A program made the position numbers and the translations under genes. From a bacterium (GTDB lineage Bacteria; Hinthialibacterota; Hinthialibacteria; Hinthialibacterales; Hinthialibacteraceae), in assembly GCA_016125385.1 (NCBI GenBank), contig WGLV01000027.1, forward strand, positions 1 through 40,266: a DNA stretch of 40,266 bases. The letters run 5' to 3'. Below are positions 38,582-40,266 of the stretch, piece after piece; positions within the stretch are counted from its first letter, which is position 1, and each line of letters starts with the position of its first letter. The notes beneath the pieces are model-generated. The model saw only the letters and a program-made list of their open reading frames with translations, ran no database searches and was not told the origin of the DNA.

Positions 38582-38609
38582 TTGAAAAGTGAAGTGAAAA
38601 TGATAAAAT
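38582..38609 (+). promoter_or_regulatory. Sigma70-like promoter of the AT-rich nuclease gene
   Basis: TTGAAA (38582-38587) and TAAAAT (38604-38609) are each 5 of 6 to consensus and 16 bases apart. The site is in the AT-rich gap before the transferred gene, so it probably arrived with it. AT-rich DNA raises the chance of a fortuitous match. Confidence 0.5.
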
Positions 38610-38643
38610 TTCTGCGAGATTGAATGTGAGGAGATGCTTAATT

Positions 38644-40128
38644 ATGAATGAGCGTTTTGAGTTAGCTTTAGAAAGAATTAAAGAAACTGATTGGTATACT
38701 TTTGAATCTTTTTCAATTAATTTTCTTCAAGAGGAATTTCCTGATATAAGAAGTAAAGCGACATCTTCAGGTGATAAAGGAAGAGATGCTGAAGTAATTT
38801 CTCTTACATCCTCTCCACTTATATTAATTCAATGCTCAACATCCAAAAACTGGAAAAAAAAGATAAATGATACAGTTGAAAAAATTAAAAAAAGTTTTAA
38901 AAAATGTTCTCATTTGATATATTGCACTAACCAAAAAATAGGAGCACTCTCTGATGATTTAGTTAAAGATGTGAGAAATTCATCCGCAATTATGCTTGAC
39001 ATCAGAGATCGATCCTGGTTCGTGATGAGAGCAAATTCCACTGATTTGAAAAGTATGCTTTCTGAAGAATTGTGCAAAAAATTTGTTGATGTATTGCTTC
39101 ATGAAAAAAATGTTATTAATTTAACGGGCTGTGCTCTTGATGAAGAAGAGTTAAAGGCTGCGCATTTATTTTTGTCCATAATATTTAGCGAGAATTATGA
39201 TAACAAAAATTTAACAAAACTATCATTTGAATCAATTGTTCGCTGTGTTATGAGGAATACTAATGAAAGTAATAAAATGAAAATCGATGGTATTGTTACC
39301 GAAGTGAAGAGAATTCTGCCATCTCACTCCGAGGAGAAGATTAAGGAATATGCCAAAAATGCTCTCTTGAGGCTTACTGGTTGTATTGTAAAAGATGGGG
39401 ATGAATATTATTTGACGTCAGAAGAAATATCCAAAAGGTCAGAGCAACTAGCAATTGTTGAAAAAGAGAAAAATCGGATTTGCGATGCAATTATAGAATT
39501 TGCTGATATCTGTGTGTCTGAAGAAAGAATAAAAAAACAAATTAAACAGCAAGAGTCCAAGATTGTAGAATCTGTATTTTTTGTGATTGATAAATATTTA
39601 TTGAGCAGAGGCGAATTATTTGCTTCTATGGTAAATTCGGGTTCGCAATACAAGTTGGCTTATGCTGAATTAAAAGATTTAATCCGAAACTCATGCTCGC
39701 AATTAAAATTTAAAATAAGTGACGTCGATCAAGTTGATTTTGTATATAATATATTGATTCGCTTGTTTTCTTCGCCATCTCTAGAAATAGTCAAATACTT
39801 CCGCTCTGTAGTAAACAGCTACACAATCATGGCATTTCTTCGAGAGACTCCTGATGTTCAGAAAACTATAAAAAAATTATTCGGTAGTGGAGAGATTTGG
39901 TTGGATACTAATATTGTTTTGCCGATGTTTGCTGAAACATTGCTTGAAAATGATGAATCCAAACTATATACCAAAATGATATCAAGCGCACAGGCTGCTG
40001 GGTTGTCATTTTATGTGATACCTGGGGTGATTGAAGAGATAAAAGGACACTTGTTGCGTTCACTAAAGTGTATGAGAACAAGTAAAAATGATTGGATTGG
40101 TCCTATCCCATTTTTGTATTCATATTAG
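38644..40128 (+). CDS. Restriction-endonuclease-like/winged-helix/PIN-like protein, truncated in its PIN domain
   Basis: This strongly AT-rich gene stands out from its GC-richer neighbours, a sign of recent transfer. Residues ~15-130 look like a PD-(D/E)xK (Mrr-like) fold: YTFESFSINFL with Glu21, GDKGRDAEV with Asp48, then LILIQCSTSKNW, where Cys-Ser replaces the usual Lys after Gln63. Residues ~190-262 resemble a winged helix. Residues ~415-494 start a PIN-like domain (IWLDTNIVLPMF, Asp421; VIPGVIEEIKGH, Glu465), but the frame stops before the later acidic residues. Past the TAG the same frame continues VRSKNL up to GTGCG, so the gene may have been longer. A TTG upstream is open, but AGGAG lies nine bases before this ATG. 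A defence role is inferred. Confidence 0.65.
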   Translation: MNERFELALERIKETDWYTFESFSINFLQEEFPDIRSKATSSGDKGRDAEVISLTSSPLILIQCSTSKNWKKKINDTVEKIKKSFKKCSHLIYCTNQKIGALSDDLVKDVRNSSAIMLDIRDRSWFVMRANSTDLKSMLSEELCKKFVDVLLHEKNVINLTGCALDEEELKAAHLFLSIIFSENYDNKNLTKLSFESIVRCVMRNTNESNKMKIDGIVTEVKRILPSHSEEKIKEYAKNALLRLTGCIVKDGDEYYLTSEEISKRSEQLAIVEKEKNRICDAIIEFADICVSEERIKKQIKQQESKIVESVFFVIDKYLLSRGELFASMVNSGSQYKLAYAELKDLIRNSCSQLKFKISDVDQVDFVYNILIRLFSSPSLEIVKYFRSVVNSYTIMAFLRETPDVQKTIKKLFGSGEIWLDTNIVLPMFAETLLENDESKLYTKMISSAQAAGLSFYVIPGVIEEIKGHLLRSLKCMRTSKNDWIGPIPFLYSY

Positions 40129-40145
40129 GTTCGTTCTAAGAATCT

Positions 40146-40266
40146 GTGCGTTGGGTAGACATGGAAACACGCGCTAACTCGTGTAATCTCAGTTTGCTGA
40201 GAACATAAGAAGCACGAGGGGAAGCGCGTGTTATTAAAGAGTATCATCAAAAAGACCTTAGGGCTC
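40146..40266 (+). mobile_element. Folded right-end segment, possible start of a group II intron or other element
   Basis: GTGCG (40146-40150) matches the 5' consensus of bacterial group II introns. Then CACGCGC (40168-40174) pairs with GCGCGTG (40224-40230), CTCGTG (40178-40183) with CACGAG (40213-40218) and CTCAG (40188-40192) with CTGAG (40197-40201) around TTTG: 18 nested pairs without mismatch. This begins 18 bases after the stop of the truncated nuclease gene and runs off the window, so no reverse-transcriptase gene or domain V can be seen. An unrelated structured RNA or insertion-sequence end is possible. Confidence 0.4.

Follow-up and report, generated by a model that had tools for sequence, protein, structure and literature searches.

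A gene encoding Mrr-like and PIN-like domains, split by an ISL3-type insertion sequence in a Hinthialibacterota genome: a putative single-gene anti-invader nuclease

In this study, we analysed contig WGLV01000027.1 (assembly GCA_016125385.1), a stretch of 40,266 nt from a bacterium of the phylum Hinthialibacterota that is referred to below as the window, and found at its right-hand end the front part of a putative two-nuclease gene broken by an ISL3-type insertion sequence (IS). The open reading frame (ORF) at 38644–40128 starts with ATG at 38644, comprises 494 codons and closes with TAG at 40126–40128. Its GC content is 0.325 (0.27 at third codon positions, GC3), compared with 0.55–0.58 (GC3 0.64–0.67) for its left neighbours dsbD, pcrA, nurA and an M28 peptidase gene, all named by eye from their translations. 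This agrees with an earlier interpretation made from the letters alone (the sequence-only reading), according to which the gene is richer in A+T than everything to its left; the gene is horizontally acquired. The coding nature of the ORF is backed by a full-length relative with 34% identity over 735 aa. The promoter of its own that the gene had been given was not borne out: a TTGAAA-16-TAAAAT match lies upstream, but eight promoter-like matches were seen in the region against 7.6 expected from shuffled sequence of that region, which is no excess.

The ORF is evidently a fragment, the front two-thirds of a 734-residue protein whose gene is split by the IS. The last 139 bases of the window contig (from 40128 to the end) recur at 12 other places among the genome's 77 contigs, and these are nearly all contig ends, as is typical of an unresolved IS. 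The TAG is an artificial stop made at the junction, formed by the end of an 8-bp target-site duplication (..TA) and the first base of the IS (G). When the genome itself was searched with the C-terminal third of a homologue, the missing piece of the gene was found at the beginning of contig C13 (E=1e-41, 33% identity, no stops), where the right end of the IS is followed by TCATATTA, the second copy of the duplication, and then by the remaining gene. This right end carries GGCTCCTCACAAGAATTTG, an imperfect inverted repeat of GGTTCGTTCTAAGAATCTG at the left end, and contains the 3'-terminal codons of an ISL3 transposase gene (PF01610, E=1.7e-4, 21.9 bits against a cut-off of 23; only this tail was scored, the internal part of the IS being absent from the assembly). 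ISL3 elements generate 8-bp duplications, and the length of the duplication, the terminal inverted repeats and the DDE_Tnp_ISL3 transposase (tail only) are all those of this family.

Joining the flanks at one copy of the duplication gave an uninterrupted 734-aa frame that ends at C13:869 and is followed by a convergent groEL. In two relatives (G001 and G004), nurA adjoins groEL in the same convergent order with other cargo between them, and in G001 pcrA lies beside nurA. This synteny gives independent support for the join between the window contig (C75) and C13, and the differing cargo indicates that the gene occupies a variable spot. That the ORF is naturally 494 aa long, and its continuation on C13 a coincidence, is scarcely conceivable: the halves do sit on separate contigs of a draft assembly, but the stop codon straddles the IS boundary, the breakpoint bears the duplication and inverted repeats, the C13 piece carries on the homologue in frame at the identity given above, and the gene order of the relatives fits the join. 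The sequence-only reading was thus mistaken in ending the gene at 40128, since 240 more residues are encoded on C13 and the stop was created by the IS junction.

The interval between nurA and the convergent groEL (window 37499 to C13:974; L044 433–1152; L046 8007–9000) carries cargo that differs from one examined relative to the next. The ISL3-type end is present in at least 13 copies in the genome, in the window and on C5, C6, C7, C17, C18, C21, C37, C43, C44, C64 and C70, mostly at contig ends flanked by AT-rich sequence. Many of the assembly breaks in this genome are due to this element, which has undergone recent multiplication.

The protein belongs to a small family. A full-length member, the 735-aa hypothetical protein WP_016156503.1, is encoded on identical or near-identical plasmid segments of Escherichia coli, Citrobacter and Klebsiella, and is also present in five of 5,426 complete E. 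coli genomes. Another (736 aa) is encoded in the complete genome G1115, and a distant one (~790 aa) in genome G198. The three close members (window, plasmid and G1115) are 34–35% identical end to end; for the G198 protein the figure is 19–21%. In addition, Klebsiella quasipneumoniae has a shortened copy behind a Tn3 transposase, and Gordonia has a C-terminal remnant. Genome sampling (386 genomes taken broadly, and 386 and 347 from two phyla) yielded the G198 and G1115 members and one relative of the N-terminal domain, which shows that the family is rare and patchily distributed.

The full-length family is not represented by any model in Pfam, NCBIfam, PHROGs or PADLOC. Direct hidden Markov model scans of the 494-aa ORF gave sub-threshold matches only, and nothing meaningful was returned by a PDB sequence search with profiles of the family, of the restriction endonuclease (REase) domain and of the PIN core. 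When single proteins or small alignments were used to scan genome and viral contigs, no relatives came up, probably because short peptide patterns are too strict at ~35% identity; there was no informative match in PHROGs and none in phage records. A literature search, with few subscription papers within its coverage, did not find an REase-PIN architecture described. A match to HGTP_anticodon at residues 271–349 (E=0.04) is absent from the relatives and was set aside as chance.

The sequence-only reading had proposed an Mrr-like centre at the N-terminus, and Mrr_cat is indeed the best nuclease-family match throughout the members. Against a curated cut-off of 21 bits, the window protein gave E=0.0027 (18.3 bits), the G1115 protein E=0.0086 as a whole and 0.0004 (20.8 bits) for the domain alone, the N-terminal domain of the G198 protein alone E=0.0003 (21.3 bits, above the cut-off) and the plasmid protein only E=0.19. 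These matches are weak singly and consistent over the members. Four residues, E21, D48, Q63 and K73, are invariant in all four full-length members, including the most distant; the first three provide the motif I Glu, the motif II Asp and the motif III residue (D/E/Q). The position two residues after Q63 is Ser or Thr, and no member has Lys there. Lys68, which had been offered as a substitute, was rejected as the catalytic residue, since this position is occupied by Asp in the protein from the plasmids and by Gln in that from G1115. In several PD-(D/E)XK families, the motif III Lys resides instead in the helix that follows the third strand (PMC1913061), and K73 lies within a predicted helix (residues 70–84, low confidence). 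We take K73 as the probable catalytic Lys, relocated to the helix behind the third core strand, and the N-terminal active site as probably modified, not abolished.

A profile of the three close members also matches the N-terminus of a 601-aa protein of genome G402 (E=5e-8 at Z=2e7; E≥75 with shuffled sequences). PADLOC identifies this protein as Aga_REase-TIR-PNTD1-PNTD2, and the next gene encodes a short Argonaute (548 bits). At this locus (L053, G402:C55, 5328–8641), the REase-TIR-APAZ gene (PDLC02416) has the short Argonaute gene (pAgo_I) directly downstream and an NYN-domain gene directly upstream. Within Argonaute systems, whose pool of domains includes the N-terminal one of our family, REase-TIR-APAZ is regarded as a double-effector protein (PMC10810196).

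These data bear on the main doubt, namely whether the front domain is a DNA-cutting enzyme or a mere DNA sensor. The domain could be catalytically dead and bind or sense DNA, so that only the PIN domain would act as effector, in the form of an auto-inhibited RNase like that proposed for DS-3, a one-protein PIN defence system found by DefensePredictor (PMC13092281). The lack of Lys at the usual position in every member, the G402 homologue, in which the Gln at the Q63 position is missing too, and the very existence of one-protein PIN defence speak for this alternative. We nevertheless consider it rather unlikely, given that the four residues are retained even at the identity of the G198 protein, that migration of the Lys is known in this superfamily and that the similar module of REase-TIR-APAZ is called an effector (PMC10810196).

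Four acidic residues, D421, E465, D583 and D612, are invariant in the full-length members and follow the order of a PIN metal site (D, E, D, D). The first two, which the sequence-only reading had already assigned to a PIN domain, are the only ones within the window ORF; the other two complete the set on C13. With the ~90-residue insertion excised, the cores of three of the four members matched PIN families (PF01850, E=0.0012; PIN_3, 0.0017 and 0.011; PIN_12, 0.049), all under curated cut-offs (PF01850, 19.9 bits against 23.6; PIN_3, 19.6 against 27), and the core of the plasmid member had no PIN-family match. An hhalign comparison with 24 genuine PIN proteins aligned the LDT and the E correctly, scoring 16.8 against at most 13.9 in 60 column shuffles, with a P of only 0.035. 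Because D583 and D612 are encoded on C13, the protein encoded in the window is unlikely to hold a working PIN site; it has only half of the predicted domain, and this gene copy is probably inactivated, or nearly so, by the insertion. The proposed union of two nuclease folds in one chain is upheld by the REase-like/PIN-like order of the four full-length members. PIN-family genes gave 39 and 43 matches in the relatives G004 and G012 and four in the genome of the window, an abundance that reflects toxin–antitoxin expansions in some relatives.

For the middle region, a single-sequence AlphaFold2 model of residues 175–270 has a helix-helix-helix-hairpin in winged-helix order with moderate confidence (predicted local distance difference test, pLDDT, 67; predicted template modelling score 0.58), and Foldseek gave no significant fold match for it. 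The winged helix suggested earlier is plausible on the predicted order of its elements and has no structural match behind it. The features of the locus are listed in Table 1.

Table 1. Positions in the window of the broken gene, its domains and the adjoining insertion sequence
Feature	Position	Strand	Basis
Promoter-like TTGAAA-16-TAAAAT with extended -10 TG	38582–38609	+	Not above chance
Ribosome-binding site-like GAGGAG, ~10 bases before ATG	38629–38634	+	Read directly from the sequence
Coding part of the broken gene, residues 1–494 of 734	38644–40125	+	ORF; 34–36% whole-length identity to plasmid protein P0001, 735 aa
Mrr/PD-(D/E)XK-like domain, residues ~13–123 (E21, D48, Q63, K73; Q-x-S/T replaces Q-x-K)	38680–39012	+	Mrr_cat profile, conserved columns
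Possible winged helix, residues ~186–266 (three helices and a beta hairpin)	39199–39441	+	Single-sequence AlphaFold2 model
Predicted first half of PIN domain, residues 413–494 (D421, 39904–39906; E465, 40036–40038)	39880–40125	+	PIN-family matches, invariant acids
Target-site duplication TCATATTA, 8 bp	40120–40127		Second copy beside the IS right end, C13 positions 141–148
ISL3-type IS left end, terminal repeat GGTTCGTTCTAAGAATCTG	40128–40266		Thirteen near-identical copies, placed almost exclusively at contig termini

Some neighbourhoods of the relatives point to defence. The adjoining gene on the plasmids encodes a TrlF-family ATPase (545 bits) related to Ppl, an anti-phage protein, and two of the plasmids carry a pair of SIR2-HerA genes further along. 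Next to the remnant in Gordonia are genes for a DUF262 protein and a methylase of the EcoRI type. These contexts, the N-terminal domain shared with an Argonaute system and the precedent of DS-3 favour a single-gene anti-invader nuclease. The architecture, the conserved catalytic columns, the disruption by the IS and the horizontal acquisition are all read from sequence. Together with the context, they lead us to consider it reasonably probable that a single-gene anti-invader nuclease of an unnamed family was acquired here horizontally and then inactivated, wholly or nearly, by the ISL3-type insertion. Neither non-nuclease folds nor a set of purely housekeeping homologues emerged; what emerged were defence-linked neighbours and relatives. 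The core of the earlier suggestion of an undescribed anti-phage or stress nuclease survives, although the anti-phage role is one that we infer.

Several observations weigh against this interpretation. The plasmid copies share what is in essence a single haplotype of recent spread, so that their neighbourhood counts about once, the G1115 member has no obvious defence neighbours, and the surroundings of the gene in the window are housekeeping genes. Single-profile matches to nuclease families are mostly under curated cut-offs, the AlphaFold2 model of residues 1–150 made with no alignment was poor (pLDDT 44.6) and was not used for a fold search, and the Q-x-S/T motif may mark a dead sensor.

Two further ORFs or groups of ORFs were noted beside members. 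A 146-aa ORF of no known family, WP_016156504.1 (L010 7425–7865), lies upstream of every full-length plasmid copy examined and was not seen beside other members; it is possibly accessory or unrelated cargo. HEPN/nucleotidyltransferase (MNT)-like ORFs, assigned by eye, lie in the vicinity of the G198 member and immediately upstream of it (L036 2841–3510 and 7909–8202).

It could be argued that the protein serves maintenance or stress rather than defence, in RNA or DNA turnover or as the toxin of a toxin–antitoxin pair, as VapC toxins are the best-known carriers of PIN domains, the nucleotidyltransferase-like ORF directly precedes the G198 member and the 146-aa ORF precedes the plasmid member. 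Against this, members have no partner gene in common: no small adjacent antitoxin gene is conserved among them, and the upstream gene differs in each lineage. The very patchy distribution, the plasmid location beside defence genes and the similar N-terminal module in an Argonaute-associated protein also make such a role improbable.

For the anti-invader nuclease that we favour, the nuclease activity, substrates, trigger and defence role may be pictured as follows, in what seems the most likely mechanism. In the intact protein, an Mrr-type PD-(D/E)XK front would be followed by a middle region of helical or winged-helix form and, at the C-terminus, by a PIN domain that holds the ~90-residue insertion and the D-E-D-D metal site; the protein would rest in an inhibited state. 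Its N-terminal and middle modules might recognise or cut invading DNA, an event that would free the PIN domain to cut RNA, and RNA cleavage would then stop growth or clear the invader. That the front part senses DNA before the PIN domain cuts RNA is the presumed order of events.

More broadly, and more tentatively, the family may be an undescribed type of single-protein immunity in which an REase-like DNA module and a PIN RNase in one chain convert recognition of invader DNA directly into RNA cleavage, the N-terminal module being shared with Argonaute-associated REase-TIR effectors. If so, this module would be a swappable, reusable part of several defence systems, and a restriction fold directed at DNA would be joined to an RNA-directed PIN nuclease within one gene. 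The intact copies on Enterobacteriaceae plasmids allow direct testing in E. coli, and the window copy illustrates how an IS can disable a defence-like gene.

Compared with the PIN ribonucleases (PF01850, PIN_3 and PIN_12; VapC), our protein has the same invariant D-E-D-D acids and LDT-x-x-VL start, but differs in the ~90-residue insertion, in the position C-terminal to an REase-like domain and in having no antitoxin gene. DS-3 (PMC13092281) likewise consists of one PIN-domain protein that lacks an antitoxin; its description makes no mention of an REase domain and in this differs from our protein. With the Mrr_cat restriction endonucleases (PF04471) there is a fold-level profile match and a common E...D...Q pattern; our family has Q-x-S/T in place of Q/E-x-K and an invariant Lys 10 residues on, and most of its members score under the cut-off. 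The Aga_REase-TIR-PNTD1-PNTD2 protein (PDLC02416) has TIR as its second effector where ours has PIN, and it has an APAZ region and an Argonaute partner where ours has neither; the REase-PIN family had no PADLOC Aga or prokaryotic Argonaute (pAgo) match, and no pAgo was found among its neighbours. The two nevertheless share a homologous N-terminal REase-like domain (28–30% identity, with the profile match given above) in which the Lys of the helix after the third strand is conserved, and in both a second effector-type domain follows in the same chain.
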